This document shows positions 2,159-26,306 of a stretch of DNA of 64,000 nucleotides, piece by piece. The notes below the pieces were generated by a model. That model was given only the letters and a program-made list of their open reading frames with translations. It was not told the origin of the DNA and made no database searches. The translations under genes and the position numbers were made by a program. Source of the stretch: Curvibacter lanceolatus ATCC 14669 (GTDB lineage Bacteria > Pseudomonadota > Gammaproteobacteria > Burkholderiales > Burkholderiaceae_C); the NCBI RefSeq assembly GCF_000381265.1, contig NZ_KB906253.1, forward strand, positions 682,001 through 746,000. The letters are read 5' to 3'. Numbering within the stretch: position 1 is the first letter of the stretch; every line of letters begins with the position of its first letter.

Positions 2159-2929
2159 TCAGTCGCTGCGCCCGCCCAGAAACTCAATGCCCGTGCGCCG
2201 CACCAGCTCGGCGTAGCTGATGGGGGCCGACACGCGCTCGCCGGCCTGGTTGCGCTGCCAGTGGGCCCAGGCCTTGCCGGTGTGGGCGTCGTAGACCAGC
2301 TTGTACAGGTAGGCCGGCACCCGCACGCCACGTGGGCCGATGCGTTCGCTGCCGGGCTCGAACACCGGGCCTGTGATCACGAACACGTCGCCCTGGGCGC
2401 GCAAGGCATAGCGGCGGGTGTCCTTTTCGATCTTGGCCCAGGGGCCGCTGTTGTTCTGGCTGTTCTGCGGCACCATGTTGGCCAGCGAAAAGCTTTGCGC
2501 CATGGCGCTGGGCGTGGGCATGTCACCGGCCGGGGCCATGTGCCCGCGTGAGTAGCCCGAGCCTTTGTAGTCTTCCAGCTCGGCGCGTTCGCCGCGCGGC
2601 AGGCGGGCGTCGGCAAAGAACTTGTCGGCCCGCTTCTCGTCGGCGTCCTCGATGCGCTGGCGGTTCAGGCGCTCGGCCACGAACACCGGGGTGCGGGTTT
2701 CGCCGCTGTGCAGCACGGCAAACGCCTCGTAACACAGCTCGCGCAAACCTCGCGCTGCTGGCACCTGGGGCGGATGACCGCCGGCAAAGAACTGAGGGCA
2801 TTCGGCAAAGCGCGTGGGCAGAGCCTGGGTTGGGGGGGCGGCCCAGCCAGAGGTTTGAGGGGCCAGGAATGCGGTGCTGACGGCGGCACAGGCGACAAAG
2901 CGGCGCAACCAGGGCGCCATCGGAGACAT
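2159..2929 (-). CDS. Secreted DNA/RNA non-specific endonuclease (NucA/EndoG family)
   Basis: A roughly 256-residue beta-beta-alpha-metal nuclease with a signal peptide (basic 'PWLRRF', then a hydrophobic core ending near 'SGWAAP'), so it probably acts in the periplasm or outside the cell. The catalytic segment reads 'YSRGHMAPAGDM': the general-base His of the DRGH motif is kept while the first Asp is Ser. The metal-binding Asn helix is 'MVPQNSQNNSGPWAKIE'. 'FVITGPVFEPGSERIG' is the standard late strand. These features fix the family well. Likely roles are DNA scavenging or cleavage of extracellular nucleic acid. It lies 78 bases downstream of a membrane-protein gene on the same strand. Confidence 0.9.
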   Translation of the reverse strand: MSPMAPWLRRFVACAAVSTAFLAPQTSGWAAPPTQALPTRFAECPQFFAGGHPPQVPAARGLRELCYEAFAVLHSGETRTPVFVAERLNRQRIEDADEKRADKFFADARLPRGERAELEDYKGSGYSRGHMAPAGDMPTPSAMAQSFSLANMVPQNSQNNSGPWAKIEKDTRRYALRAQGDVFVITGPVFEPGSERIGPRGVRVPAYLYKLVYDAHTGKAWAHWQRNQAGERVSAPISYAELVRRTGIEFLGGRSD

Positions 2930-3007
2930 GAAATGCACGGAAACTACAAAGCCAAAGCGCTCGATTGGAGCACGGCCAAAGCGTCACAAAGTGCAAAACA
3001 GGTGAAT

Positions 3008-3694
3008 TTACGGGGTGTGTTGTTCGGGCCTTGAGGGCGCTTGTTTCACCAGGGCCATCAGCACCAGACCCGGCAGCAGAAAGCCCAGGCCGACCAGCGT
3101 GCCATGGCCCAGGTGGGCCCAGGGCTCGGGCCACGCGGCCATCCAGCGCATGGGCGAGAGCCAGGGGTTCAGGCCCATCCACAGCGCGGCCACCAGGGCG
3201 CAGGGCCAGCGCCAGTCGGCACCATGCTGGCGGGCCTGTTGCCAGGCCAGCCCGATCAGGCACAGCACCAGGCCGCCCTCCAGCCACCAGGCCCAGGGGC
3301 CCAGGCGGGCCCACAGGCCGGCGCCCAGGTGCTGCTCAGCGTACGGAAACAGGGCCAGATCGTGGTTGTGCACCGGCCAGTCGGCCACCCAATGCGACAG
3401 CGCCGCCACCAGACCCCAGGCCGCCAGCGCCCGGCTGCGGCGCCAGCACAGCAGGCCCCAGGCGCCGGACCACAGCCCGGCCGCCAGCAAGGAGTGGTCC
3501 CAGTCGATGAAGCGCAGGTCGAAGTACAGGTAGGGGCCGGCCGCCAGGTTGGGGCTGACCTGGTCCCAGCCCAGCACGATGAACAGGCCGTTGAGCATGT
3601 CCAGCAGGCCCACCCCCAGCAGGACGGGCCAGGCCGGCTGCCGCGGGATGCGGCTTTGCAAGGCCAGGCCGATGGCGAAGTGTCCGGCGTACAT
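3008..3694 (-). CDS. Polytopic membrane protein, possibly YdjM-like metal-dependent hydrolase
   Basis: A 228-residue integral membrane protein with about six hydrophobic segments separated by short polar loops. It carries an N-terminal 'GHFAIGLAL', a conserved-looking 'FIDWDHSLLAAG' loop and 'LSHWVADWPVHNHDLALF'. His/Asp pairs placed this way resemble the membrane-bound metal-dependent hydrolase (YdjM/DUF457) superfamily, but this is a motif-level guess. It starts 28 bases after the stop of the GMC oxidoreductase-hydrolase fusion on the same strand, so it is probably the third gene of that operon and may act on the same membrane lipid or sterol-like substrate. Confidence 0.7.
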   Translation of the reverse strand: MYAGHFAIGLALQSRIPRQPAWPVLLGVGLLDMLNGLFIVLGWDQVSPNLAAGPYLYFDLRFIDWDHSLLAAGLWSGAWGLLCWRRSRALAAWGLVAALSHWVADWPVHNHDLALFPYAEQHLGAGLWARLGPWAWWLEGGLVLCLIGLAWQQARQHGADWRWPCALVAALWMGLNPWLSPMRWMAAWPEPWAHLGHGTLVGLGFLLPGLVLMALVKQAPSRPEQHTP

Positions 3695-3722
3695 GGGCTC
3701 GGTCGGGCTTGGAGGGGGCCGC

Positions 3723-6700
3723 TCAGGGGTGTCGGTTCAGCTCGGCGATGAGCTGCGGGAACACCTCGGCGGCCGCGTTCTTGCCGATGAACAGGTCCAT
3801 GTGGGCGTAGTCCTTGAAGAGCTGTCGGCTGTACAGGCCGGGGTCGTTGTGCTCGCTCAGCCAGGCCAGGGTGCGCAGGCTGGTCTCGGGCAGGAACAAC
3901 TGGTTGCGGGCCCCCGCAATGAAGTGGATGGGCAGGGCCAGGTGGCGCGCCCGCTCGGGGCTCAGGTAGCGCTCGTGCCCCAGCGGGTCCACCACATGGC
4001 CTTTTTGCATGATCAGGCTCAGTTGGTCGAAGGGCCGCAGCGACACCGGCCCCACCATGCGTGCCAGGGCGGTGTGGGTGGCGTGGTTGAGCTGGTCGTG
4101 CCGGTACGAGGGCCCCATGATGGCAAACAGGCGGCGGCACACCGGGTTCTTGCAGGCCTCGCCTTCGGGCACGGGCACGCCCCAGAGCACGGCGTCCAGC
4201 TGGCTGTCGAAGTCCGTGCCACCGGGCACGAAGTCGACATGGCCGCCGAACTCGGGCATGTTCTGCAGCAGGCGCGACACCCCCAGCTCGCTTTTCAGAT
4301 CGTTGAGCCAGTTGGTGATGGGGTGCAGCGTGAGCTGCGAGGCGATCACCGAGCGCACGCCGGGCATGCCCTCCAGCAAGGCCATCAGCAGCGTCATCGA
4401 ACCCACGCAATGCGCGATCACCTGCAGGTCGGGCCGGCCGGTTTGGGCCAGCACATGGCGCACGGCGGCGGGCCAGTCATGGCGGGCGATGTCGCTGATC
4501 GTGTAGGGCTGCAGCGGGCTGCCCGAGTCGATGCTGCCGCGGTAGTCGAGCAGCCACACATCGAAGCCGTCGCGGCACAAGGCCTCGACCAGGTTCTCGT
4601 CCACCGTGTCAGTGGCAAACGAGGAGGTCCGGATCGAAAAGCCCGGCGCCAGGATCACCGGGCCCTTCTGACCTGGGTAGCGGGTCAGGCGGATCGAAAA
4701 GCCATCGTCCAGCGGCACGCTGTGCACCACCGGGGCCGGCGCCTTCAAAGGCCGCCCGGCCCATTGGGGCAGGGCCTTGCCCGGAAAGTCGTTGAGGCAG
4801 GAGAGCAGGCCCCCATAGGCCTGGAACACCGTCATGCCGAAGAAGCCCGCAAACTGCTCCAGGTACAGCAGGTGGATGGTGTCCAGCAGCCCGGGCTGGT
4901 GGGCCTGGATTTGCCGGGCCAGGGGCGTGACGGCCTCCAGCTTCAGCGTGGTCAGCTGCTTGAGCAGGTCGTCCAGTGCCAGCGAGGCGATGCCCTGGGC
5001 CAGCAGGGTGCCACCGGGCTGGTCGCGCACCTCCACGAACAGCGTGGTCAGGTCTTGCCAACTCGAGGAGCTGGCGGTCTGGTGCAGGCGCTTGTGGCCG
5101 CGCAGGTGGAACTGGCCACGCCCTTGCGCGCGCTCCAGCGTCATGTCGTACACCATGAGCCAGGTCTCCACCTGCTGCTCGTCGGTGCACAGCAGCTGGA
5201 AGCGCCCCTGGCGCACCACCATGGGCTCGGGGTCCAGGGCGTGGCAATGCACCTGGCCGTCGATGTCGGCGGGGTGGTCTTCGTGGGTGTTGAGTTGGTG
5301 AAGGTCCTGGGTGTGCACCAACAGCTCCAGGCTCAAAGTCTGGCCGCGGCGGCGCCCCCAGGCGCGGGCGATCTCGAAGTCGTGGATCAGCCCGCCGGGC
5401 CCGTTCTGCTGCAGGGCTTCGGTGCTCACCCAGCCGGCCATGCGCTCGGAAAACGAGAAGGCCGGGCTCAGCAGCTGCGGAAAGCGTGCGATTGCGGCTT
5501 TCAACACCGCGGCGCCTTCTGCCTTGGCCCAGTCGAGCACGCCGTCTTCCAGGGGCTGGATCAGCTCGTGCATCAAAGTGTGGCCGGCTTGTTGAAGAGC
5601 GTGCTCGGCGGTCTGCAGTTCCTCTTGCACAGCGTTTTTCAGGCGCGCCCAGAGGCTTTCGGAGTCCTCCGGTGCCTCGGCTGCGGCCGGTGGGGTGGCA
5701 GGGTGGGCAGGGGTGGCACCCCACTGGATGGTCCAGCCGCGCTGGTCGGCCAGGCGCTGGCAGGCGCGCTCGGCCACGGCGGTGATGGTCAGCAGCGGGT
5801 TGACCCCCACCGCGGCGGGGATCACCGCGCCGTCGCACACGTACAGGCCCTCATGCACGGCCTCGCCCTGCGTACCGGCAAAGACCTGGCACTGGTGGTT
5901 GACCACGCCGTGCGACGCATCGTCGCCCATGGCGCAGCCCCCGAGCGGGTGCACCGTGACCAGCTTCTGGCCCATGCCCTCGGTCCACAGCGGGTTGGCG
6001 ATGAACTGGCCCTGGATGCCCTCACTGGCGCGGCGCAGCCACTGGTTGTCGTGCTCGATGACGGGGGATCGCCCGGCATGGGGCCAATCGATGCGCAGGC
6101 GGTCGTCATGCAGTTTCAACTGGCCCTGGGCGTCGTCCAGGCTCATCACCAGAAAGGTCTGGGTGCGGTCCACCGCGCCGCGGTAGGCCATGTCGGCCAG
6201 TTGGCCGGGGTCTTGCTGGACGGCCTCGCCGATGGCCTTGGCATCGAGCAGCTTGCGCTTGCCGTCCTCCGCGCCGTATTCGAAGGCGGTGTTGAGCTGG
6301 GCCGATGCAAAGAACAGGGCCGGGGCCAGCGCCAGGGCCAGCGCGCCCGGGATCACGCCTTCTTCGATCACCAGGCGGTCCTTGGGGTCGGGCTCCTGGC
6401 GCAGGTCGATCACGCCGGTGATGCAGGGGCCGGGCAGGGCGCCTTCCACCGGCTTGCGCTGGCCCAGGCCCACCCCGTGCAGGCCTGGCACGTCGGCCAC
6501 TGGGGGTTCACGCAAAGCCAGTTCGTCCGGGTCTTCGCCTTGGTCGTCGTCGGCCGTGGTGGCCTGCGCAGCCTCGGCCGCCTGAGGCGACCAGCCCGCG
6601 TCATACGCCAGGCCCAGCACATCGCCATTGCCCGAAAACGAGGCGCCCAGCCGGTCTGACAGGGGCAGGCCGTGCTGGCGCGAGCGCAGCAGGATCTCGG

Positions 6701-7541
6701 TGGAGCCCAGGCTGCCGGCGCCCAGCACCACCACATCGGCCAGCACGCTGCGCAGGGCGGTCTCCTGCTGGGCGGTGGGGCGGTAGTGCACGCGCCAGCG
6801 CGTGCCCTCGCGGCTCACGTGGCTCACGCTCACGCCGGTGAACAGGCTGGCGCCATGGCGCTCGGCATCGGGCAGGTAGTTCATCTGCACCGTGTTCTTG
6901 GCGCCCACGTTGCAGCCGCTGGTGCAGTCGCCGCAATCGTTACAGGCCGGCTGGGCGACGCCGAAGGGGTTGACCCGGTCTTCAAAGGTGACGTTGATCG
7001 GCACCCGCTTGAAAGGCTTGTCGAGGTGGCTGGCCGACTGCCGCAGGGCGGCCAGCTTGGCTGGGGTGGGGCGGTCCAGCGGGTAGGTGCGAGGCTCCAG
7101 GGTGGCCCGGGCCCGCTGCAGGTAGGGGGCCAGCAGCTCAGGGTCGTCCCGGAAGGGTTGGGGCCAGGCCGGGCTGCGCAGCAGCTCGGGGTCGGCCTCG
7201 AGTGACACGTTGGCGTTGATCAGCGAGGTGCCGCCCAGCCCATTGCCCACCATGGCCAGCATGTCGGCGTGCACATGCAGCTGGTACAGCCCGGTGGGCG
7301 AGCCGAGGGTCTGGGCGGCGGTGTCCACGCGCATGGCGCCCCGCGCCTGGTTGAGCGAGGCCGGAAACTCGCCGGGCAGGTGCTCCAGGCCGCGTTCCAG
7401 CAGGGCCACCTGGCGGCCCGCACGCGCCAGGCGCGAGGCCGCCACGCCGGCCCCATAGCCCGAGCCCACCACCACCACCTCATACGAGGGCTTTATGGCG
7501 GCCAGGCCCTGGCCAATGTCTTGGGCAATCCTGCGCATCAT
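3723..7541 (-). CDS. GMC oxidoreductase fused to an alpha/beta hydrolase
   Basis: A 1272-residue two-enzyme fusion. Residues 1-600 are an FAD-dependent GMC (cholesterol-oxidase-like) oxidoreductase: 'VVVGSGYGAGVAAS' at 23-36 binds FAD, 'GNGLGGTSLINANV' follows at 99-112, four cysteines (200, 203, 206, 210) lie in 'CNDCGDCTSGCNVGAKN', 'VTVHPLGGCAMGDD' is at 528-541, and 'GVNPLLTITAVAE' is the terminal GMC motif. An acidic linker (about 318-350) sits inside this domain. Residues about 935-1272 are an alpha/beta hydrolase whose nucleophile elbow is 'IAHCVGS', placing Cys1045 where esterases have Ser, as in polyhydroxyalkanoate synthases. His1247 in 'DYAHMDL' suits the catalytic His, and the acid position reads Asn ('GARNQLFLPE'). 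The middle segment (600-930) is unassigned. The start ATG overlaps the upstream gene's stop as ATGA behind a good AAAGGAG site, so the two are translationally coupled. Confidence 0.9.
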   Translation of the reverse strand: MMRRIAQDIGQGLAAIKPSYEVVVVGSGYGAGVAASRLARAGRQVALLERGLEHLPGEFPASLNQARGAMRVDTAAQTLGSPTGLYQLHVHADMLAMVGNGLGGTSLINANVSLEADPELLRSPAWPQPFRDDPELLAPYLQRARATLEPRTYPLDRPTPAKLAALRQSASHLDKPFKRVPINVTFEDRVNPFGVAQPACNDCGDCTSGCNVGAKNTVQMNYLPDAERHGASLFTGVSVSHVSREGTRWRVHYRPTAQQETALRSVLADVVVLGAGSLGSTEILLRSRQHGLPLSDRLGASFSGNGDVLGLAYDAGWSPQAAEAAQATTADDDQGEDPDELALREPPVADVPGLHGVGLGQRKPVEGALPGPCITGVIDLRQEPDPKDRLVIEEGVIPGALALALAPALFFASAQLNTAFEYGAEDGKRKLLDAKAIGEAVQQDPGQLADMAYRGAVDRTQTFLVMSLDDAQGQLKLHDDRLRIDWPHAGRSPVIEHDNQWLRRASEGIQGQFIANPLWTEGMGQKLVTVHPLGGCAMGDDASHGVVNHQCQVFAGTQGEAVHEGLYVCDGAVIPAAVGVNPLLTITAVAERACQRLADQRGWTIQWGATPAHPATPPAAAEAPEDSESLWARLKNAVQEELQTAEHALQQAGHTLMHELIQPLEDGVLDWAKAEGAAVLKAAIARFPQLLSPAFSFSERMAGWVSTEALQQNGPGGLIHDFEIARAWGRRRGQTLSLELLVHTQDLHQLNTHEDHPADIDGQVHCHALDPEPMVVRQGRFQLLCTDEQQVETWLMVYDMTLERAQGRGQFHLRGHKRLHQTASSSSWQDLTTLFVEVRDQPGGTLLAQGIASLALDDLLKQLTTLKLEAVTPLARQIQAHQPGLLDTIHLLYLEQFAGFFGMTVFQAYGGLLSCLNDFPGKALPQWAGRPLKAPAPVVHSVPLDDGFSIRLTRYPGQKGPVILAPGFSIRTSSFATDTVDENLVEALCRDGFDVWLLDYRGSIDSGSPLQPYTISDIARHDWPAAVRHVLAQTGRPDLQVIAHCVGSMTLLMALLEGMPGVRSVIASQLTLHPITNWLNDLKSELGVSRLLQNMPEFGGHVDFVPGGTDFDSQLDAVLWGVPVPEGEACKNPVCRRLFAIMGPSYRHDQLNHATHTALARMVGPVSLRPFDQLSLIMQKGHVVDPLGHERYLSPERARHLALPIHFIAGARNQLFLPETSLRTLAWLSEHNDPGLYSRQLFKDYAHMDLFIGKNAAAEVFPQLIAELNRHP

Positions 7542-9058
7542 GGCCGGGCTCCTTTCTGGTAGGGGTGGGCCATGGACCGGGCATTGAGCGCCGCCGCGGC
7601 CAGGGCTTCCAGCTTGTCGCGGGCGCAGCCCGAGAAGGCGGCCCAATCCGCTGCGGTGGCCGCGACCGCCGCTTGCAGGGCGCCCAGCAAGGGGTTGTGC
7701 CGGTCGCGGAAGTTCTGCAGGCCCTCGGCCCGCACCGGGGCCATCTGCGAGGCCACGGGGTCGTTGAACAGGCGCAGGGCGGCCACATCCATGGCGTCGC
7801 TGATGAACACGGCCGAGGCCCCCTGGGTGAAGGTCATGGTGGGCTGGTCCAGCACCCAGCCGCCGGTGTTGTAGACGGCCACCGGCTGGTTCAGGCCCTC
7901 GATGACCAGCTCTTGCTGGAAGGGCTTGTGGGTGTGCCCATAGACAAAGGACAGATCGAAGTCGGGCAGGGCGGGGTGGGCCGCGGGGTCGGGGCGCAAA
8001 GCCTGTTGCAGGTCGTACAGGGCCGGCCCGCCGATGAAGGCGCGCAGGTTCTTCAGGTCGTCGGGGGGCAGCACATCGAGAAAGTTGTTGCGCTGACCCT
8101 GGGCATTGCGCGTCAGGGTGAGCTCGATCAGCGCTCCCACCAGTTGCCGCAGCGTGATGCCCTGGTACAGCGGCATGCTGCCGCTGAAGCCGAGCTGGCT
8201 CGCCACCCGGTCCAGCAGGCGTTCGCGGAACTGGTCGGCATAGGCATGCGAAGCGCCGGCATTGTTCATGACCTGGTACAGCGAGAAGGCCTCGCGCCCG
8301 GTGTCGCCGGCGCTGCCCAGGTCGGACCACAGAAAGTCGACCCAGGCACCGTTTTCCTCTTCCAGGGTCTCGGCGCTCAGGTCGCCCATCGTTTGCCCCG
8401 ACATCAGGCCATTGATGGTGCTCATCAGGCGGTAGGTCGGGTCGATGTAGTGGCCATGGTGCAGCACCACGCCGCGTTGGCGGTCGGGCGTCAGCAGGCA
8501 CAGGTTGGGGTAGGCGATGTGCACGCGGGCCAGGGGTTCATCGGGCAGGTGCCGGCGCAGGATGGCCGTCAGCATGTCGCACGGGATCTCGGAGCCCGGG
8601 GGGCGGTCGCGGTACTCCGAGTGGTCGATCAGGTCGTCATGGATCTGGCCCTGGCGCAAGGCCTCGACGAACAAGGTGTCCTGGGCCATGCGCCACAGGT
8701 GGTGGTCGTGGTTGCCGGGCACCAGCAGCATGGTGGGGGCCAGCACCGGCTCCTGGCCGGGGGGGAACAGGGCCTCGACAAACTGGGTGAACACCCGGGC
8801 CACCTGCCCCATGGGCGAGATGCCCAGGTCCAGGATGTCGCCCAGCAGCACCAGGGTGGGCGGCGTGGGGGCCAGGCCCTGGGCCTGGGCCGCCTGGGCC
8901 ATGTGGCGCAGCGTGCGCCGCAGCGACGAGGCAAAGTGCAGCAGCGTGGGGCTGGGGTGGGCGGCGTCGAACTCGCCGGCCGCATTCAGCTGCGTGAGGG
9001 TGCTGTCCGGGGCCCCGAGGTGGAGGTCCGACACGCAGACGTAGCGCACAGTGGTCAT
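7538..9058 (-). CDS. Calcineurin-like metallophosphoesterase
   Basis: A 506-residue cytosolic metallophosphoesterase with every dimetal-site motif: 'VSDLHLG' (D11, H13), 'LLGDILDLG' (D74), 'PGNHDHH' (N116, H117), 'LHHGHY' (H201/H203) and 'YGHTHKP' (H375, H377). The stretch between motifs four and five (about 205-370) is long and lacks known signatures, so the substrate (nucleotide, phospholipid headgroup or phosphoester) is unknown. It is the first gene of an operon; its TGA overlaps the start of the GMC-hydrolase fusion. Fixed stoichiometry with that fusion suggests removal of a phosphate from a substrate before or after oxidation and ester cleavage, which is inference. Confidence 0.88.
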   Translation of the reverse strand: MTTVRYVCVSDLHLGAPDSTLTQLNAAGEFDAAHPSPTLLHFASSLRRTLRHMAQAAQAQGLAPTPPTLVLLGDILDLGISPMGQVARVFTQFVEALFPPGQEPVLAPTMLLVPGNHDHHLWRMAQDTLFVEALRQGQIHDDLIDHSEYRDRPPGSEIPCDMLTAILRRHLPDEPLARVHIAYPNLCLLTPDRQRGVVLHHGHYIDPTYRLMSTINGLMSGQTMGDLSAETLEEENGAWVDFLWSDLGSAGDTGREAFSLYQVMNNAGASHAYADQFRERLLDRVASQLGFSGSMPLYQGITLRQLVGALIELTLTRNAQGQRNNFLDVLPPDDLKNLRAFIGGPALYDLQQALRPDPAAHPALPDFDLSFVYGHTHKPFQQELVIEGLNQPVAVYNTGGWVLDQPTMTFTQGASAVFISDAMDVAALRLFNDPVASQMAPVRAEGLQNFRDRHNPLLGALQAAVAATAADWAAFSGCARDKLEALAAAALNARSMAHPYQKGARP

Positions 9059-9119: not shown

Positions 9120-10973
9120 TCAAAGCCCGGGTGGAATCACAGGTTCATTCAACTGGCGCCAGTCCCAGAACGCCTCCACGGGCATGGCCTTGGCGACATA
9201 CCAGCCTTGCACGTATTCGCAGCCCAGGCGTTTCACGATGGCCCATTCCTCGGCGGTCTCCACCCCCTCGGCCACGATGCTCAGGCCCATGCGGTGGGCC
9301 AGCGAGCAGATCGAATCGAGCAGCACTTCGGCGGCGCTGCCCTCCTGCACGCCTTTGACAAAGGAGCGGTCCACCTTGAGCTCTTGCACGGGCATCTTCT
9401 GCAGGTAGGCCAGCGATGAGTACCCGGTGCCGAAATCGTCGATGGACAGGCTGAAGCCGGCCTGCCGCAAGGCGTACAGGTGCTTGAGGGCGGTGTCCGG
9501 GTCATCCATCACGCTGCTCTCCGTGACCTCGAAGCGGATGTCTCGCGGATCGGCATGCAGGCGGGCCGCCAGTTCCTGCGCCTGACGACCCAGGCGGTCG
9601 TCGCGCAGATCGCTGGCGCTGATATTCACCGAGATCTGAATCGGCCGCCCCGCCACCCGCTGCTGGGCGCAGACCAACAAGGCCTTTTTGAGCATCCATT
9701 CGGTCAGCATGCGGATGCTGCCCGTCTGCTCGGCAAACGGAATGAATTCACTGGGGGGCACCAGGCCCCGTTCGGGGTGACGCCAGCGGATCAGGGCTTC
9801 GGCCGACTCGATGCTGCCGTCCGCGATGCGGACCTTGGGTTGCAGGTGCATTTCCAACTGGTTTTGTGTGACAGCGTCCTTGAGCTTGGACAGCAGGCTC
9901 AGGTCGGCCCGCGAATTCAGCTCCATGCTGTCGGAGAAGGTCAGCCAGTCGGCATTGACCCGCTGTGCCGCATGGGTGGCGATGGCCGCGGCGCGGATCA
10001 GGTGCTGCATGCTCTGCCCATGCCGGGGCGCCACCGCCACGCCCACGGTGAAGCTGATGTCCACGGGCTCGCCCATCACATTCAGGGGCTCGGCAAAGCG
10101 GGTCCGCACCTCTTCGATCAGGTCGGAGGTGTCGGCATGGCTGGAGGCCAGCAGACAGAACTGCGAGGCATGGAGCCGACCCACCTTGACCTCGGGGATG
10201 CTGTGCAGGCGTCGAGCTGCCTCGATCAGCACGGCATCGCCAAATTCATAGCCCAGCGCATCGTTGATGGCCTTGAAGCGGTCCAGGTCCAGCACCAGCA
10301 CCAAGGGGTCATTGCCCTGGCGCAGGTGGGCATCGCCATCGGCCCGGATCCCTTCACGATTGGGCAACTGGGTCAGGCTGTCGGTGATGGCTTTCTGGTG
10401 TTCGTATTCCGACTGCTGTTGGTGCTCCATCATCCGGCACACGTTGAGCAGCAGCACCCCACCGAAGAACAGGCTGGCCGCCAGGGTCAGCAAGGCGTGG
10501 GGCTGAACATGCCCGTGCCACGCGTACAGCACGGAACCCAGACTCAGGACCAGAAAAACGCCATAGATGCGGGGCCTGGCGGACAACACCGTCACCGTGA
10601 CCGCTGCCCAGCCCACCACCAGGGCTGACAGCAGCGCCAGGTCGATGATGTCCAGAGCGCTGGAGAACAAGGGCAGGCAGGACACCGCCAGCGCGCCTGT
10701 GATGGTGTTGATGGCCGCCATGGCATCCAGCGTGCCCGGCGTGGGCCCCTGGCGGCTCAGATGCACGTGGTAGTACCACTGCCGCAACAGGTAGCCGCAG
10801 GCCACCACGGCATACCAGGCGCCGTATGCCGGCCATCCCACGCGCTCGACCAGGGTGAAGCCGAAAAGGCCGCACAGGCTCAAGGCCGCCAGCGTGCCCA
10901 ATCGGGATTGAGAGACCAGGATTTCGACTCGTCTCACCGTCAGGTCGTCGGCAATTTCGCGCAAAATCGGCAT
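9120..10973 (-). CDS. Membrane-anchored GGDEF-EAL protein, probable c-di-GMP phosphodiesterase
   Basis: 617 residues. Five or six hydrophobic segments (about 25-178) form a membrane sensor, followed by a GGDEF domain (about 190-350) and an EAL domain (about 355-610). The GGDEF signature itself is lost, reading 'HASQF' at 268-272, so cyclase activity is very unlikely. The EAL domain keeps its key residues: 'EALIRW' (E392), 'VNISASDL', 'FEVTESSVM', 'IDDFGTGYSSL' (D512, D513), 'LKVDRSFVKG' (K533) and 'IVAEGVETAEE'. It therefore probably hydrolyses c-di-GMP, with the degenerate GGDEF domain as a GTP-sensing or dimerising module. It is monocistronic. The ATG at 10973 is the first methionine of a typical short cytosolic leader. 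Confidence 0.93.
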   Translation of the reverse strand: MPILREIADDLTVRRVEILVSQSRLGTLAALSLCGLFGFTLVERVGWPAYGAWYAVVACGYLLRQWYYHVHLSRQGPTPGTLDAMAAINTITGALAVSCLPLFSSALDIIDLALLSALVVGWAAVTVTVLSARPRIYGVFLVLSLGSVLYAWHGHVQPHALLTLAASLFFGGVLLLNVCRMMEHQQQSEYEHQKAITDSLTQLPNREGIRADGDAHLRQGNDPLVLVLDLDRFKAINDALGYEFGDAVLIEAARRLHSIPEVKVGRLHASQFCLLASSHADTSDLIEEVRTRFAEPLNVMGEPVDISFTVGVAVAPRHGQSMQHLIRAAAIATHAAQRVNADWLTFSDSMELNSRADLSLLSKLKDAVTQNQLEMHLQPKVRIADGSIESAEALIRWRHPERGLVPPSEFIPFAEQTGSIRMLTEWMLKKALLVCAQQRVAGRPIQISVNISASDLRDDRLGRQAQELAARLHADPRDIRFEVTESSVMDDPDTALKHLYALRQAGFSLSIDDFGTGYSSLAYLQKMPVQELKVDRSFVKGVQEGSAAEVLLDSICSLAHRMGLSIVAEGVETAEEWAIVKRLGCEYVQGWYVAKAMPVEAFWDWRQLNEPVIPPGL

Positions 10974-19967: not shown

Positions 19968-20188
19968 GCGGGTTGCCGTGCTGGGCCGGGCTCAGGGCTG
20001 CCTGGCTGCGGTCGGCCCAAGATGGGCAAGTTGAAGACAAGGACCGCCGCCGCCAAAAAAACCATCACGGGCGCCAGCATCAAAGCCAGGGGCCCCAGAA
20101 AGGTTTCGGCCAACTGATGCTGCCCCGCGTGCCAGATCACGGCCGAGGCGGCCAGCGCGATGAGGGCAAAGATCCGTCGAAGCGACAT
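19964..20188 (-). CDS. Small two-helix membrane protein
   Basis: A 74-residue protein with a basic start 'MSLRRIF', two hydrophobic helices (about 6-22 and 33-53) separated by a short polar turn, and a Pro-rich tail. It is not recognised. The ATG at 20188 is preferred over an upstream alternative because the basic, hydrophobic start is typical of inner-membrane insertion. It is the first gene of the coupled two-gene operon with the protein at 19638-19967. Confidence 0.65.
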   Translation of the reverse strand: MSLRRIFALIALAASAVIWHAGQHQLAETFLGPLALMLAPVMVFLAAAVLVFNLPILGRPQPGSPEPGPARQPA

Positions 20189-20794
20189 GGGGTGGGGTGA
20201 GGGCAGGTCAGCCGAAGGCATCAGTTTACGGTGGCTGTCATAGCGCGGGGGCTAGAGCAATTGGTCAGGCGGCACTGCGCGCCAATTGGACATTGAGTGC
20301 GTCGATGAGCACAAAACGATCCAAGAAATGGGTCCATCGAACAAGCGCTGGCCCTTGGCTTGATCGGCAAAGTGCCCTGGTAGGATGGCTGAGAACGGCC
20401 AGTAGCTGCCAGTAGCTGCCAATTGTTGAGTTGGCTGCAGAGCCGATTCCGCTTAGCAGCTCGGCACTGTCGTTGAATCGAATGGGCGAAAGCCGCCAGT
20501 GGCTGAGTTGAGCGGTGTCTGCGAGCGGCCGGTTCGGGCCGAATCTCGCCGGCAAGTGCTTGGTGTCGCCAGATCCCTTTGAAAGCGTCGTACCCATACA
20601 ACCATGGTCGGGCACGGGGTGAACGCGCAGTAGCAGTACCAGCCGTCAAGCTCGTAAGGCTCCAACTCGCTGGTTCCCGATGCGGGAGGTGTCAATCAAC
20701 TGCAGCGAGGGCGGTGCCGGGCGAGCCCGGGCGCCGAAGGGGGAGCTGATCGTGGGGAATTTCCCGTTGGGATGATCCCCTTGTCTTGTGCCGC
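20189..20794. other. 606-base AT-richer region without a supported gene
   Basis: Short open frames exist on both strands but none has codon use or homology I recognise; they are broken by stops and look decayed. Local features are a tandem GTAGCTGCCA pair at 20402-20421 and a CCGGGC/GCCCGG inverted repeat near 20719. Base composition falls here relative to the flanking genes, marking the left edge of the AT-richer block that runs to about 25.2 kb. Confidence 0.45.
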
Positions 20795-22564
20795 TTAGAA
20801 CGACTCCCAGCTGTCGTTGTCAACATGCGTGCCGGTGGCCTTGGCCGAGCTGGTTGCTGTCGTGGCTGTTGGATGGGCCAATGCCAACTTCGGTGCCTTT
20901 TTCACAGACTTCAGGCTTGTGGTATTGGATGAGCCAGTCGCTGTTTGAGGACGTGCTGCTGCCTTTGATGCCGGAGCTTGAGCGCTGCGATGTTGAACTC
21001 CGCTCAATTTGAAGACGGACACTGCAGCGACCAACTGTGCCGATTGGTGCTCCAGGCTTTGCGCTGCAGCGGCGCTTTCTTCCACCAACGCCGCGTTTTG
21101 CTGCGTGGTTTGATCGAGCTGGTTGATGGCTTGGCCAATTTGGGTCACGCCGGAGCTCTGCTCCGAACTGGCGGAGCTGATCTCGCCGACGATATCGCTG
21201 ACGCGTGTGATCGCTGCGACGACCTCCTCCATGGTCTGACCGGCTTGGTCCACCAGGATCGAGCCCTGCTCGACTTGATCCACACTCGCACCAATGAGTG
21301 ACTTGATCTCTTTGGCAGCCTCGGCGGAGCGTCCTGCCAGGCTTCTAACCTCAGAGGCGACCACTGCAAAGCCACGACCCTGCTCCCCGGCACGAGCCGC
21401 CTCGACCGCAGCGTTCAAGGCCAGGATATTGGTCTGAAATGCGATGCTGTCGATGACGCCAATGATGTCTCCGATCTTCTTGGAGCTGTCATTGATGCCC
21501 TTCATGGTCTCCACAACCTGCGCAACCACCGAGCCACCCTTGCTGGCCACCTCCGAGGCGTTCAGTGCCAGCTGATTGGCCATCTTCGCGTTGTCCGCAT
21601 TGTGGCGGACCGTGGTTCCAAACTGGTCCATGGTGGCAGCTGTCTGTTGCAGCGCGCTGGCCTGCTCTTCTGTTCGTTGGCTCAGATCGGTGTTGCCGAC
21701 CGAGATTTCCGAGGAGCCCGTTGCGATGGAGTCCGCCGCGCCACGCACTTGGGCAACTATCTTCACCAGATTTTGTTGCATGACCCCAAGGGAGGCCAGC
21801 ACACTGCCAGGGTGAGCGGCCTCAATTCCGGTCACCGGGCTCAAATCGCCACTGGCAACTCGCTCTGCGGCTTCGCTCAGCAATCCTGGTTCAGCACCCA
21901 GGGCGCTTGTCAAACTGCGCACGATCAACATACCAGCGACCACCGCAGCGGCAAGGGCCAAAAGGCATGCGGCGCTAAGCCAATTGCGCTGGCTGTTGTA
22001 GTGGGCCTCTGCTTCCTTGATCATCGCGGCCGACCGCTGTGCAGTCACATCGGCATATGCATTGGTTTTTTCGATCAGTGATGCCAGCAATGGGCGGCAT
22101 TCGTCGTTCATCTTGGCGATGGCTTCGTCACGCTTGTTTTGCAAAGCAAGCTGCACGATCGCCAACGCCACCGGCCCGTATGCCTGTTCAACCTTGTCGA
22201 TTTCAGCGACCAAGGCTTTGACATTGCTTGGGATATCAGGGTTAACCACCATTTCTTTCAATTTTGCGAGATCCTTTTGTACCTGCTCATGCGCCCTGGT
22301 GACAGCTGCTTTTTCAACTTCCAGGTCGGCTGGCTTGGTCACCAGCACCAGGTTGCGCGCGGCAATGGCCCGAGCATCGACCTCGGAGTGAATGCGGCTT
22401 GCGAGAGTGGCTCGGACATTGACGCCATTCACATACGACTCAAAGGCCAGGTTCGCGTCCTGCAATGCATTGAGCGCTACGCCAGCCACGACAAGGACTA
22501 GCAGGGCCAAGCCACCAAAGGCGGCAGACAACTTGGCACGAACCGACATATTTTGAAAGGACAT
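20795..22564 (-). CDS. Methyl-accepting chemotaxis protein with C-terminal CheR/CheB tether
   Basis: A 589-residue transmembrane chemoreceptor. TM1 is near 15-34, a four-helix-bundle-like periplasmic ligand domain spans about 35-190, TM2 lies near 194-214, a HAMP segment follows, then the long signalling coiled coil. The conserved tip ('[20 protein letters not shown]', then '[15 protein letters not shown]') is at about 373-407. The protein ends '...NDSWESF', an NWETF-like pentapeptide that recruits the adaptation enzymes CheR and CheB. The ligand is unknown. The start is the ATG at 22564 with GAGGTG upstream. The gene is AT-richer than neighbours such as the IMPase gene. Confidence 0.95.
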
Positions 22565-22589
22565 TTCGGCACCTCGACTTGATAGATTT

Positions 22590-22630
22590 CGAGGAATTTT
22601 TGATCGAAGTGACACTTGTGTCAAATCTAT
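22590..22630 (-). promoter_or_regulatory. Probable sigma-70 promoter with overlapping palindromic operator for the chemoreceptor
   Basis: Read on the minus strand, TTGACA is followed after 17 bases by AAAAAT, about 30 bases before the chemoreceptor start. The perfect inverted repeat TGACAC-TT-GTGTCA (22610-22623) overlaps the -35 box, a classic position for a repressor. No flagellar sigma-28 promoter was seen. Confidence 0.5.
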
Positions 22631-22639
22631 CATAAGTCC

Positions 22640-23307
22640 AGTGTGATGCTCTGGTATGCACTTTTGCCCATAAATGTGTGCTACCGAACACACGTGATTG
22701 TCTTGTGATGAATGTTGTGCTGGAGGCCTTTGTGATGCTCTGGGTGGCCCTTGCGGGACCAAGCATCAAATCCCCAACTGCCACGGCATACGTTTTGGTT
22801 GGGTTCCAGCTTTCTCTGGCTCGGTGTTGATCTTGTCGGACCAGAACAAGGTCGTGCCATACGGTGCTGACGATAGGCCGAAGTAGGGGTTTTCCCAGCA
22901 TGAGGCACCGAGATCTCAAGTTGGGCTGGCTCGGCCTTGATCCACGGCGCGCCGTCGAGACCCCGCCACGCCCTCGGTCTTGGTAGACCAATTTTTGACG
23001 GCCCTGCCGACCCCGGGCAGTGCAAGGCCTGGCGCTACCCAGCGGCCCATTTTTTGGCCAAGTTAGAGACGGGATTTGGCGGGGTCTTCCTTGTACGTTA
23101 GAGCGATATCACCCGCATGCATGTTGGAGGCGTCTAGCATGGGGTAACCACTCAGCAGGCTTTCGGCCAACTGCAGCGGAGGACGGCAATGGGCCCAGAG
23201 CAGTCAGTCGGCTATCTACAGAAGCGGTCCTTCTCGCAATTTAGCGTTGAGCTATGAATGCGAAATTCGGGGCATTTCACTTCACCTAGAAGGCCTTCTT
23301 GTTGGCC
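22640..23307. other. Gene-free stretch of roughly 670 bases
   Basis: No reading frame here is convincing on either strand. Small frames are interrupted, lack ribosome sites and show no familiar residues. The stretch lies between a monocistronic chemoreceptor and a TetR gene inside the AT-richer block and may contain decayed mobile or gene sequence. A TGTGTG/ACACAC imperfect inverted repeat is present at about 22674-22692. Confidence 0.45.
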
Positions 23308-23892
23308 TTACGCAGGTAGAGTTGCTTGGGGCCCGAGCAAAGCATGTTCCGTCCCTGCGGCAATCTGATCCGAGAACTCACGGCTGAAAACCGCTCGTGC
23401 AAGCGTGACCGCACCCACCAGCGAAGACAGGGCGGCACAAGCAGCCTCCATGTCTTGCGGCGCATTTGGTGAGTCGGGACCATCTACGACTGCCTGTGCG
23501 ACGTCGCGTAAAGCATCCTCGAAAGTTGTGCGCGAGGCTTCGTCTGATCGAGACACCTCTATCGGCATCGTCTGCAACGTGCAACTTTCTGACAAGTCGC
23601 AGGTTCGCTTGGCGCTGAGGTAAAAGCGCACAAATTCCGGCCACCAAGCGTGTCCGTGTTGTTCTTGGAAGTACAGCACCCCGCCCCTCAATTCGGCCAT
23701 GCCCAGTGCGACCGATTCCCGAAATGCTTGGGCCTTTGAGTCGAAATGAACGTAGAAGGCGCCGGAGGTCACCCCTGCTTCTTTTGCAAGGCCGTCTACC
23801 CCTATCCCACCGAAGCCTGCCTTGCGAAACCCGCGCCCTGCGCCCTGCAGGAGTTGCTGCCGCGTCTGCGACTTCTGTTCTGACCTCGACAC
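23308..23892 (-). CDS. TetR family transcriptional repressor
   Basis: A 194-residue TetR regulator. The N-terminal helix-turn-helix (about 10-55) reads 'TRQQLLQGAGRGFRKAGFGG' then 'VDGLAKEAGVTSGAFYVHF', the canonical A-GV-xGxxYxHF recognition helix. The C-terminal helices form a ligand pocket with few conserved residues. It is divergent from a tautomerase gene with a strong inverted repeat in the 144-base gap, so it almost certainly represses that gene and itself, released by a small electrophile or aromatic compound (inference). Confidence 0.92.
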   Translation of the reverse strand: MSRSEQKSQTRQQLLQGAGRGFRKAGFGGIGVDGLAKEAGVTSGAFYVHFDSKAQAFRESVALGMAELRGGVLYFQEQHGHAWWPEFVRFYLSAKRTCDLSESCTLQTMPIEVSRSDEASRTTFEDALRDVAQAVVDGPDSPNAPQDMEAACAALSSLVGAVTLARAVFSREFSDQIAAGTEHALLGPQATLPA

Positions 23893-23939
23893 GATGAACT
23901 CCTTCGACCTGTGAAGTTGAAGATTGTAGTTGTCAGAAC

Positions 23940-23971
23940 ACGATCGTTATGTAATATTAAATAACGGTCGT
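23940..23971. promoter_or_regulatory. Nested palindromic operator between tetR and the tautomerase gene
   Basis: An inverted repeat, ACGATCGTTAT / ATAACGGTCGT, with 11-base arms, one mismatch and a ten-base AT-only spacer that includes TAATAT, probably a -10 box. The left arm also contains the self-complementary ACGATCGT. Size, symmetry and position between divergent genes fit a TetR dimer-pair operator. Confidence 0.7.
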
Positions 23972-24036
23972 TACTTGAAATGCCATGCGGAGACGCAGCG
24001 TATGGGTCGACGCCGTTCTTTCTAGTTGGAGTACCT

Positions 24037-24453
24037 ATGCCACTTACGCTCACCCTTACCGAGGGCGTTCTTCCCGAGGGTCAGGAAAAAGTCGCCTTCA
24101 GTCGCCTGTCCGATGCCATGCTCAAGTGGCACGGCCTGGCTGGAAATAAGGCGATGACACCGAATATCGTTGGCTCGATCCACGTCCTGCCGAGGGAGCA
24201 TACGTATTCGGGATCACAGGAAGCTTCTGTGGCCTTCATTGAATGGAAGGTCCCGTCCTTCGCGTTCGCTAGCCGTGAGATTCAAGTCGGCTACATCGAA
24301 GAGGCCACGAACATCATTCATGAACTGTCTGGCACGCTTCACCCGAAGGAACGCATATGGGTCAATGTGGTACACGCGGTGGATGGGGCTTGGGGGATTG
24401 CAGGGATGGCCCTCAACAATGCGCAACTCAGCGCGGGGGGTGTTCCGGCCTGA
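24037..24453 (+). CDS. Tautomerase superfamily protein
   Basis: A 138-residue protein beginning 'MPLTLTLTEG', which exposes the catalytic Pro at position 2 after methionine removal, the hallmark of 4-oxalocrotonate tautomerase, MSAD and MIF relatives. Length matches the double beta-alpha-beta (MIF/MSAD-like) branch. 'GYIEEATNIIHELSG' and 'PKERIWVNVVHAVDGAWGI' fit the second half. Substrates are unsaturated keto acids or halo-acrylates. The ATG at 24037 has TTGGAG nine bases upstream and is the only start that puts Pro second. It is likely controlled by the divergent TetR. Confidence 0.82.
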   Translation: MPLTLTLTEGVLPEGQEKVAFSRLSDAMLKWHGLAGNKAMTPNIVGSIHVLPREHTYSGSQEASVAFIEWKVPSFAFASREIQVGYIEEATNIIHELSGTLHPKERIWVNVVHAVDGAWGIAGMALNNAQLSAGGVPA

Positions 24454-24531
24454 GACATCTGGGGGCCGCAACGAGGTCGCCAGATTCGGGACGACCGCGT
24501 TGAGGCCTCCTCACAACTCAGTGAGACCAAT

Positions 24532-24927
24532 ATGCAACTCTCGAACTATCTTTTCTTCACCACTGACTGTGACCAAGCCTTGGCTTTTTATGCGCAATGC
24601 GGCCTTGGCCATGTTGTCGAGATCCTGCGCTACGGAGTAGACGGCATGCCGGTAAGAAACGAGGCTATGCGTGGGAAGGTCATGCATGCCAAGTTCCAAG
24701 GACCTGCTCTGCACTTTTATGCCTCGGACAATGACGACGCGGAACCGATGCGGGGTTCTGCACACTTATTGGCAATGGACGACCGCGACTCCACACGCGA
24801 ACTCTTCCACGCGCTGAGTGCTGGCGGGACCATCACAACTCCCTTGGGCATCCAACCCTGGGGGGACTATTACGGCAAATTGACCGATCGATTTGGTGTT
24901 CAGTGGATGCTGAACTGCGCTGAGTGA
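24532..24927 (+). CDS. VOC/glyoxalase-fold protein (PhnB-like)
   Basis: A 131-residue single-domain protein of the vicinal-oxygen-chelate superfamily, PhnB-like subgroup: 'LFFTTDCDQALAFYAQCGLG' is the first beta-alpha-beta unit and 'WGDYYGKLTDRFGVQWMLN' the typical C-terminal strand pair. Members bind divalent metal and act as glyoxalases, dioxygenases or antibiotic-binding proteins; metal ligands cannot be assigned confidently. It lies 78 bases after the tautomerase gene on the same strand, suggesting a TetR-controlled detoxification pair. Confidence 0.85.
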   Translation: MQLSNYLFFTTDCDQALAFYAQCGLGHVVEILRYGVDGMPVRNEAMRGKVMHAKFQGPALHFYASDNDDAEPMRGSAHLLAMDDRDSTRELFHALSAGGTITTPLGIQPWGDYYGKLTDRFGVQWMLNCAE

Positions 24928-25229
24928 GATCGCGCGCTGCGCTAGCGGAGCATGGCCGTTCCGGGCATGGTCTGCTTCGCGTAGTCCGAAGGTCGTCCGC
25001 AGTCAATCGGGATTTTGAAGGGCAGATATCGGATCAATCGTCGACCGGCGCAGTGCTTGATCTGAATGGAACAGCATTTATGGTCACTCACGGCAGTTGG
25101 CAATCCCCTTGACTGTACCGCGGATCCAACGAGTTCGATGGTTTGGATTTTGTCGTTGGCGCAGCGTGCACAACAGGCCTGACACAAGGCCCAGGCTGGA
25201 GCCCCCGGCCCCAGCCAGCCCCCCCCACC
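24928..25229. other. 302-base gene-free gap at the right edge of the AT-richer block
   Basis: No coding region, RNA gene or terminator recognised. Composition shifts back to high GC at about 25.15 kb. A short stretch near 25120-25180 contains scattered tRNA-like tetranucleotides but does not fold as a tRNA by inspection. Confidence 0.4.
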
Positions 25230-26306
25230 TCAACGCTCAATCGTCTTGTTCCAACGGCTGTTCCACCCCGGGCGCTGCTCATTGATGGCGTCCCAGTCGA
25301 CGGTCACGGCGTTTTTCATGTAGCCATTGATCAGCTTGACCTGCTCAACCCCATTGCCCACCACGGGGGCCTTGGGGTTGGTGGGGATCTGGTCGCCAAA
25401 CTGCAGCACATTGGCCTGGGCCAGGGGCGAGAGCAGGAACTCGGCCAGCTTCTGGGCCAGTTCGGGTTCGCTGTTCTTGGCGATCACGCACTGGGCCACC
25501 ATCAGCACCACCGAGCCCTCTTTGGGTTGGGCGTATTCGACCGGGATGCCCTTGGCCTTCAGGCCGGCCACGCCGGTGGGGGTGAGCGGGAACAGCGCGG
25601 CCTCGCCGGTCTGCACCATCTCGGAGATCTTGGCCGAGCTGGGGATGTACTCGAGCACATTGGGGCCGATGGTGTTGGGCCAGGCCTTGAAGCCGGGTTC
25701 GACGTTTTTGTCGGTGCCGCCCTGGATGCGGTTGAACATCAAGAAGCCGTGCAGGCCGAAGGTGGACGACGGCATGGATTGGAACACCACCTTGCCCTTG
25801 TACTTGGGGTCGGCCAGGTCCATCCACGAGGTGGGGGCGGCCCAGCCTTTTTCGGTGAACATCTTCTTGTTGTAGGCCAGCCCGGTCATGCCCAGGCTCA
25901 CGCCGGTGGCCATGTCATTCTTCAGGCGGGCGGCGGGGTAGATGTCTTTCAGCACCGGGGTGTCGCGCTGCTTTTCGCACAGGCCCATGTTGATGGCCCG
26001 CACCATGATGCCGTCGTCCAGAAACATCACATGCATCTGCGGCTTGTCCTTGTTGGCCTGGGCCTTGGCCAGGATGTCGGACGAAGTGCCGGGCACCACC
26101 ACCACCTTGGCGCCATAGGCCTTTTCGAAGGCCGGGAACACATACTGGGTGTAGGCCTTCTCCATCTGCCCCCCGTTCATGCCGATGTACAGGGTTTTGG
26201 TCTGGGCCAGGGCGTTGCTGCCCAGGGCGGCGCTGGCGCACAGGGCGGCGCTGGCCCAGGCCAGGCGGCTGAAACGACGTGCTGGCACGGAGGGGGTGGT
26301 TTTCAT
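25230..26306 (-). CDS. ABC transporter periplasmic substrate-binding protein (PotD/AfuA type)
   Basis: A 358-residue secreted receptor with a signal peptide ending near 'SNALAQT'. 'TLYIGMNGGQMEKAYTQYVF', 'PAFEKAYGAKVVVVPGTSS', 'GLAYNKKMFTEKGWAAPTSW' and 'ADPKYKGKVVF' follow the class of bacterial extracellular solute-binding proteins (SBP_bac family 1/6) serving polyamine, iron or opine importers. It is the last gene of a seven-gene minus-strand operon whose two permeases and ATPase are encoded upstream. In this setting it probably binds the amine or opine oxidised by the adjacent flavoenzymes. The ATG at 26306 begins a typical signal peptide. Confidence 0.9.
   Translation of the reverse strand: MKTTPSVPARRFSRLAWASAALCASAALGSNALAQTKTLYIGMNGGQMEKAYTQYVFPAFEKAYGAKVVVVPGTSSDILAKAQANKDKPQMHVMFLDDGIMVRAINMGLCEKQRDTPVLKDIYPAARLKNDMATGVSLGMTGLAYNKKMFTEKGWAAPTSWMDLADPKYKGKVVFQSMPSSTFGLHGFLMFNRIQGGTDKNVEPGFKAWPNTIGPNVLEYIPSSAKISEMVQTGEAALFPLTPTGVAGLKAKGIPVEYAQPKEGSVVLMVAQCVIAKNSEPELAQKLAEFLLSPLAQANVLQFGDQIPTNPKAPVVGNGVEQVKLINGYMKNAVTVDWDAINEQRPGWNSRWNKTIER

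Follow-up and report, generated by a model that had tools for sequence, protein, structure and literature searches.

A GMC oxidoreductase–beta-barrel–alpha/beta hydrolase fusion of Curvibacter lanceolatus and its recurrent phosphoesterase partners

Introduction

Cholesterol oxidases of the GMC type, lysosomal and gastric acid lipases, polyhydroxyalkanoate (PHA) synthases and two families of phosphoesterases are the described systems that come closest to the gene pair discussed here, which lies in a window of 64,000 nucleotides (the whole stretch that was analysed; contig NZ_KB906253.1, positions 682,001 to 746,000) of the 6.8 Mb genome of Curvibacter lanceolatus (G000). The pair codes for a calcineurin-like metallophosphoesterase (MPE) of 506 residues, P0002, and for P0001, a protein of 1272 residues that joins a GMC domain, a predicted beta-barrel and an alpha/beta hydrolase domain (Table 1). 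Below, L### and G### designate fetched loci and genomes, respectively. We find that this pair is one instance of a GMC–barrel–hydrolase unit that is widespread, patchily distributed and often kept with a phosphoesterase.

The GMC half has the fold and the catalytic His and Asn of cholesterol oxidase (1b4v, 3gyi, 1coy), to which the fusion adds the barrel, the hydrolase and a four-cysteine motif that has no counterpart in the aligned stretch of 1b4v; it scores far below the cut-off of the cholesterol oxidase equivalog. The hydrolase half has in common with acid lipases (6v7n, 1k8q/1hlg) the fold, the DVWxxxxRG region and the HxD motif at the catalytic His, but it has a Cys in place of the nucleophilic Ser, an Asn at the acid position and an oxidoreductase partner domain, and no signal peptide is seen. 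PhaC is also an alpha/beta hydrolase with a Cys nucleophile. In PMC5509742, its triad is given as Cys291-His477-Asp447, with a GxCxG box, and is overlaid on gastric lipase 1HLG. Compared with that PhaC, the fusion hydrolase has Asn for Asp, an HCxG elbow mostly devoid of the first Gly, and no PhaC family score.

Regarding the phosphoesterases, P0002 shares the family score and the metal ligands of PF00149, but it represents a 506-residue subfamily that has no credible relative, by sequence, among solved proteins and was seen only beside the fusion when 149 genomes and 72,556 plasmids were searched. The partner found in a second clade shares PF09423 and a profile match with the alkaline phosphatase PhoD (2yeq), from which it differs in being often the C-terminal domain of the GMC–hydrolase polypeptide. 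PF00149 and PF09423 presumably belong to one superfamily. All domains of the unit except the barrel are members of known superfamilies. A search of the open-access full text, subscription journals being mostly outside its scope, found no paper on the GMC–barrel–hydrolase architecture among the matches listed, so that this architecture, the Cys-His-Asn site and the repeated pairing with phosphoesterases appear to be undescribed.

Distribution of the unit and of its partners

A chance or frame artefact is ruled out as the origin of P0001, which is 98% identical across all 1272 residues to the protein of Curvibacter gracilis (L001), the nearest named relative at this locus. Since, in addition, the catalytic residues are near-invariant in far more distant relatives, the features of the fusion are beyond chance.

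P0001 was compared with 149 related genomes. Among the matches listed, 59 genomes are represented, many of them by ordinary GMC genes only, and 22 were judged to carry the unit. Five of these 22 have a P0002-like MPE, 13 a PhoD, two another PF00149 gene on the 3' side (G102, G110), and for two none was found (G073, G104). Contig ends break the locus in G003, G036 and G037, and G110 has the GMC and hydrolase parts as separate genes. The P0002-like MPE is present in only 5 of the 149 genomes and is beside the fusion in all five. The partner-type PhoD (E ≤ 1e-30) is present in 14, 13 of which carry the fusion, while G020 has a truncated orphan copy; six more genomes have weaker PhoD matches only (E 1e-17 to 1e-21), none of them at a fusion locus. 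One or the other of these two phosphoesterases, P0002-like MPE or partner-type PhoD, is found in 18 of the 22 fusion genomes versus 1 of the 127 others (Fisher p 1.9e-18, which is only a guide because the genomes are related and not independent). When the 72,556 plasmids were searched, P0002 matched a single record (Variovorax), directly 5' of a fusion.

The initial annotation of the window, made from its sequence, had put phosphoesterase, GMC domain and hydrolase together as a set. This co-occurrence is recurrent in relatives: 71 loci have the GMC and hydrolase parts in one open reading frame (ORF), and a calcineurin-superfamily phosphoesterase is adjacent or fused in 54 of them (MPE 5' in 13, MPE 3' in one, PhoD gene 3' in 22, PhoD fused in 18); 15 show none, and two loci are cut by a contig end. 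Four-base overlaps between the phosphoesterase and fusion genes are seen in several loci; that of the window, an ATGA, was confirmed in the sequence (MPE 9058-7538, fusion 7541-3723). The largest polypeptide (L035:6201-13334, 2377 residues) reads histidine kinase–receiver–GMC–barrel–hydrolase–PhoD. Such a unit can readily escape notice, since the six annotated long plasmid matches (H2-H5, H7, H9) carry no other name than "alpha/beta fold hydrolase" or "GMC oxidoreductase".

These counts depend on partner labels that were set by hand for each locus. The label "none" is weak where the flanks are short (L005, L006, L031, L089, L090), and distant partners may be missed because the PhoD and MPE detection profiles are small, home-made and partly built from the same loci. 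The counts cover nine of the 96 plasmid records with matches (H1-H4, H6-H9, H15); outside them are the other 87, the unfetched loci with matches (G574, G884, G892, G998, G1053, G1133, G1141, G322, G381, G388, G499), another match in G064, where its contig C1 begins, and 37 genomes read as having ordinary GMC or hydrolase genes. Split or cut versions (L002/L003, L047, L102, L074, L094/L095) are not among the 71, nor are L087 (GMC part only), L093 (an orphan PhoD) and L008-L014, which have no GMC–hydrolase fusion.

The phosphoesterase partners

In P0002, PF00149 scores 29.5 bits (Pfam cut-off 21.5), and the metal ligands (motifs DxH, GD, GNH, GH and GHxH; D11, H13, D74, N116, H117, H201, H375, H377) are invariant in the 11 aligned partners, so the calcineurin-like assignment made at the outset holds. 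A hydropathy scan of the MPE found no hydrophobic segment, and a search of the PDB gave no credible sequence relative. Seven PhoD partners were scanned with PF09423: L037, L040, L036, L035 and L100 are above the cut-off of 27 bits, L046 (23.5) and L091 (22.5) below it. The profile of the PhoD partners matches PDB 2yeq at E 1.3e-16.

A tree of the 71 fusions (quick search, support from the Shimodaira–Hasegawa-like approximate likelihood-ratio test only; the window protein is represented by L001) is two-sided, with 30 rows against 41; 37 rows are flagged for odd letter composition and L044 for a long branch. The 30-row side includes a clade of 11 rows, among them Curvibacter, which have the MPE in 11 of 11 cases, and 15 rows without partner. 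Outside the MPE clade, some members of this side have partners of their own: in Azospirillum oryzae, HUE56_RS04420, annotated "metallophosphoesterase", ends 34 bp before the fusion HUE56_RS04425; G102 has an MPE 3'; G349 has a PhoD-like gene 55 bp 3'; and in Persicobacter a motif-bearing gene of 467 codons lies 9 bp upstream. On the 41-row side, the fusion is linked to PhoD in 39 of 39 assessable rows, as one polypeptide in 18.

The MPE profiles, at E 1e-4, match neither the Azospirillum nor the Persicobacter gene, which suggests that these are separate recruitments or very distant relatives. The starred branches of the tree force at least three changes for MPE5, at least five for PhoD3 and at least five for PhoDfus, the last two including switches between each other. 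The partners are of several kinds (P0002-like MPE, other MPEs, PhoD) and, as far as this tree indicates, were gained several times.

It may be that these neighbours are merely co-regulated with the fusion, for instance under phosphate starvation, and share no substrate with it: genes for PhoD and for MPEs are frequently under Pho control, and 15 of the 71 loci show no phosphoesterase neighbour. Yet co-regulation accounts poorly for the 18 one-polypeptide PhoD fusions, the recruitment of different phosphoesterases and the four-base overlaps, and we consider it improbable.

The hydrolase domain

The family Abhydrolase_1 (PF00561) is above the Pfam cut-off in the fusion and, in sequence searches, the solved proteins nearest to the hydrolase half are lysosomal acid lipase (PDB 6v7n, E 7.6e-5) and gastric lipase. 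For L007, a full-length relative of 1148 residues, the AlphaFold model (mean predicted local distance difference test score, pLDDT, 73.4; predicted template modelling score, pTM, 0.50) has cholesterol oxidase 3gyi as its top Foldseek match (E 1.1e-25, TM-score 0.75 by target length), and the first non-GMC fold listed is that of dog gastric lipase 1k8q, at rank 28 (E 2.2e-16). The acid lipase family PF04083 gives no match in P0001, and the split relative of L047 scores 19 bits versus a cut-off of 27.

We aligned 75 hydrolase domains (71 fused, three stand-alone and that of the window). The elbow Cys, which replaces the Ser nucleophile of the acid lipases, and the His are present in all 75. The acid position is Asn in 73, and in 74 the second residue past the His is Asp. 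The two exceptions to Asn are L080, which has Ser, and L048, which looks frame-shifted (the protein ends in a way unlike its family, and the PhoD part runs on in separate ORFs). The Cys and the Asn to which the initial annotation drew attention, Cys1045 in the AHCVGS elbow and Asn1213, are therefore traits of the family, and the catalytic set that the alignment points to, Cys-His-Asn, is near-invariant.

This Cys had been likened to that of PHA synthases. The nucleophile is indeed shared, but the PHA synthase models are far below their cut-offs (TIGR01836, 14.1 versus 365.3 bits; TIGR01838, 11.3 versus 622.65 bits), and the PhaC-type Cys-His-Asp triad in a GxCxG box is not what the family shows: Asn stands for Asp, and just 3 of the 75 rows have the first Gly of the box (Ala in the window). 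A polyester enzyme, in which the Cys hydrolase would polymerise or depolymerise hydroxyacyl chains and the GMC domain would oxidise their alcohol ends, is nevertheless conceivable in view of the Cys, of the weak matches to PhaC models and of the class III PHA synthase genes phaC and phaE located about 6 kb from the fusion on one Rhizobium leguminosarum plasmid (L099:312-2052). The missed cut-offs, the Asn and the missing Gly speak against it. As PhaC_N is present in 126 of the 149 genomes, it does not track the fusion, and co-occurrence is uninformative about a link to PHA. We regard this as the least probable of the alternatives.

The GMC domain and the nature of the substrate

Both GMC families are above the Pfam cut-off in the fusion (GMC_oxred_N, 49.9 bits versus 23; GMC_oxred_C, 51.8 versus 24.6), which bears out, together with the hydrolase match, the proposal that a cholesterol-oxidase-like domain is joined to an alpha/beta hydrolase. 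The GxGxxG motif typical of flavin adenine dinucleotide (FAD) binding reads GSGYGAG at residue 26. By sequence, cholesterol oxidase is the nearest solved protein; in the alignment with 1b4v, HPLGGC and VGVNP coincide with the catalytic His447 and Asn485, numbers that match those in the titles of mutant structures, and designate His531 (70 of 71 relatives) and Asn581 (71 of 71).

The Cx2Cx2Cx3C motif noticed in this half is a family trait, its four Cys being present in 71, 70, 70 and 70 of the 71 relatives. The CxxCxxCxxxC spacing, which is that of a ferredoxin-type site, is conserved, and all Fer4 matches are below the cut-off. The ChoD proteins of actinobacteria presumably have this motif too. 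The acidic insertion pointed out in the same half exists (residues ~331-340) but is not family-wide: among 13 distinct aligned rows it is seen only in the window fusion and in that of C. gracilis.

In four loci labelled as having no phosphoesterase, a second GMC gene, possibly a heteromeric partner, adjoins the fusion (L005:4088-5434, L015:11417-12979, L085:2312-4045, L098:9105-10523). At L084:11209-13140, a RoxA-like cytochrome c domain protein, a possible partner in electron transfer or isoprenoid oxidation, is encoded directly 3' of the fusion.

A pathway for a membrane lipid or a sterol-like ester was proposed from the window. A hydrophobic alcohol or ester is a reasonable substrate, because the nearest folds are those of cholesterol oxidase and acid lipase. 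On the contrary, an endogenous sterol or hopanoid is disfavoured: squalene/hopene cyclase (PF13243, E ≤ 1e-20) is present in 9 of the 149 genomes and, of the 22 that have the fusion, in G104 only, so that it is absent from the Curvibacter genome itself and from 21 of the 22, and a home-made sterol or hopanoid is unlikely.

The same likeness to cholesterol oxidase and to lysosomal acid and gastric lipases could mean that the unit degrades exogenous sterols, sterol-ester-like or other ester lipids, the phosphoesterase releasing phosphate or a headgroup. We think this rather unlikely: the fusion scores 141.8 bits against a cut-off of 850 for the NCBIfam cholesterol oxidase equivalog (NF058674), the identity in the structural matches of L007 is only ~20%, and the 21 genomes without cyclase make no triterpenoid of their own by this route.

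The middle segment

The 330 residues between the two halves had been left unassigned. We modelled this segment alone, from the sequences of P0001 and nine relatives (pLDDT 66.3 on average, and 67-92 in blocks of ten residues across the barrel core). The model predicts an eight-stranded antiparallel beta-barrel, preceded by a helical stretch of low confidence. The helical linker (606-693) is largely missing from the nine relatives outside C. gracilis, and the barrel has no Pfam family.

Split forms mark the natural limits of the modules: L047 (G110) has GMC, barrel–hydrolase and MPE as three genes, and L102, on an Arthrobacter plasmid, has GMC–barrel and hydrolase as two.

The hybrid kinase

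On the PhoD side of the tree, a hybrid histidine kinase gene is immediately 5' of the fusion in 32 of the 41 rows, often overlapping it, and fused to it in one (L035), which makes 33 of 41. In L044 the kinase gene is divergent, L064 and L068 have it on the opposite strand at a distance of up to 2 kb, and no kinase is directly beside the fusion in L036, L046, L088, L100 and L104. A scan of seven kinases showed 4-6 hydrophobic segments in the N-terminal part; L035, where the kinase is fused, has two.

The alternative that we take most seriously, although we hold it to be somewhat unlikely, follows from this association: the enzymes would make or break a lipid-like signal perceived by the linked kinase. 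The logic would be that of PhcB and PhcS of Ralstonia, described in PMC8578825 as a methyl 3-hydroxymyristate synthase and its sensor kinase. The frequency of the kinase in the PhoD clade, its N-terminal segments, and the GGDEF-EAL genes near the fusion in the window and in L037 are consistent with such a module. The 11 rows of the MPE clade are not, since the only kinase within 1 kb of the fusion is that of L092, on the other strand; besides, two-component pairs beside catabolic enzymes are common.

DUF6765 (PF20551) genes adjoin the fusion at L004:6483-7616, L032:11044-12153 and L036:9532-10629; by eye, their His/Asp motifs seem to resemble those of zinc phospholipase C / P1 nuclease proteins, and no paper on DUF6765 was found in the open-access literature.

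Proposed function

We argue that the unit may be a multi-step machine, located in the cytosol or on the inner face of the inner membrane, that acts on a hydrophobic molecule, and we give this reading a probability of about 45%. In such a machine, the phosphoesterase would strip a phosphate or a phospho-headgroup and expose a hydroxyl. The GMC domain would oxidise that alcohol by means of His531 and Asn581, as in cholesterol oxidase, and the electrons, instead of going directly to oxygen, would pass through a cluster bound by the four Cys. A greasy chain might be held by the barrel. Attack of Cys1045 on an ester or acyl group would give an acyl-thioester, which would then be hydrolysed or transferred. 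In the PhoD clade, the polytopic hybrid histidine kinase could be coupled to the enzyme and sense its substrate or its product.

Several observations weigh against this proposal. The substrate and the order of the reactions are deduced, an Fe–S cluster is suggested by the spacing of the Cys only, and a cytosolic location is suggested by an N-terminus in which no signal was seen by eye and by a simple hydropathy scan. Structure searches with the barrel returned no named relative at a significant score (lowest Foldseek E 0.044; highest Z 9.6, among unrelated and designed barrels, the designed ones at 8.5-8.7), so no named fold could be retained. The phosphoesterase is not obligatory, since the 15 loci in which none was detected amount to half of the 30 MPE-side rows. 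The kinase is not immediately 5' in 8 of the 41 PhoD-clade loci, nor is it in the MPE clade. The PhoD of L036 (3871-5637) may be catalytically dead, because its apparent metal ligands are lost (GNE, DDGE and GGAH for GDQ, DDHE and GDEH). Last, three partner calls come from sub-cut-off or motif evidence: the MPE of L103 (motifs only, no Pfam match), the MPE of L097 (RefSeq name, and PF00149 at 19.5 versus 21.5) and the PhoD of L091, a sub-cut-off match; the PhoD of L048 consists of separate ORFs that resemble a frame-shifted gene.

A fuller version of the multi-step reading, which we put forward tentatively, is that of an undescribed bacterial lipid-processing machine that combines, in coupled proteins or in a single polypeptide, phosphate removal, alcohol oxidation and acyl cleavage or transfer by Cys-His-Asn, was put together repeatedly with different phosphoesterases, and in one clade is wired directly to a membrane hybrid kinase, so that it would make or read a lipid signal.

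Genomic context in the window

All the genes considered here are on the minus strand, in the 5' to 3' order GGDEF-EAL, MPE, fusion, membrane protein, endonuclease.

Table 1. Features of the locus in C. lanceolatus (window coordinates).
Feature	Position	Strand	Basis or remark
GGDEF-EAL protein, 617 aa, 61 bases 5' of the MPE, same strand	9120..10973	-	ORF and domains
Calcineurin-like metallophosphoesterase, 506 aa, first of the coupled pair	7538..9058	-	PF00149
GMC–beta-barrel–alpha/beta hydrolase fusion, 1272 aa	3723..7541	-	start overlaps MPE stop as ATGA
GMC (cholesterol-oxidase-like) FAD domain, residues ~15-605	5727..7499	-	alignment, Foldseek, conservation
Four-cysteine motif C200-x2-C203-x2-C206-x3-C210, ferredoxin-like spacing	6912..6944	-	conservation in relatives
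Low-confidence, mostly helical linker, residues 606-693	5463..5726	-	low pLDDT
Predicted eight-stranded antiparallel beta-barrel, residues ~694-925, without Pfam family	4767..5462	-	structure model
Acid-lipase-like alpha/beta hydrolase domain, residues ~936-1270	3732..4736	-	PF00561, PDB and Foldseek matches
Cys1045, putative nucleophile, elbow AHCVGS	4407..4409	-	Cys in 75/75 aligned hydrolase domains
Asn1213, triad-acid position	3903..3905	-	Asn in 73/75
His1247, putative catalytic His in YAHMD / YGHxDC	3801..3803	-	His in 75/75; Asp at +2 in 74/75
Membrane protein of 228 aa with five hydrophobic peaks, 28 bases past the fusion	3008..3694	-	hydropathy
DNA/RNA non-specific endonuclease, local neighbour, probably unrelated	2159..2938	-	PF01223

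The membrane protein does follow the fusion at the distance first described, but its membership in the set does not stand. It has no Pfam or NCBIfam match, and a profile built from the Curvibacter copies matched only those two loci (L001, L003) among 69, so that we rejected it as a conserved part of the system. The endonuclease was rejected likewise (matches in L001, L003, L016 and, distantly, L012, among 17 loci).

A role in anti-phage defence was also considered and rejected: no PADLOC model matched the four window proteins, and the L037 kinase matched a candidate-defence model only via its ATPase part. Genes of types known from defence islands, nSTAND2 and PglZ, adjoin two fusions (L005:1-657, L006:2-1078). 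The GGDEF-EAL gene 5' of the window MPE and a receiver-PAS-GGDEF-EAL gene near the PhoD-type locus L037 (2650-5313) hint at a connection with cyclic di-GMP. Elsewhere in the window, positions 20001-26000 have a G+C content of 0.55-0.60, versus 0.65-0.72 over most of it, and hold a methyl-accepting chemotaxis protein gene (20795-22762).

Implications

The repeated gain of different phosphoesterases by the GMC–barrel–hydrolase unit argues strongly, on genomic grounds, for a shared pathway. This linkage suggests that the pathway has several steps, is as yet undescribed and probably has a greasy molecule as its substrate, and the natural split, coupled and fused forms of the unit are ready-made constructs for finding its substrate.

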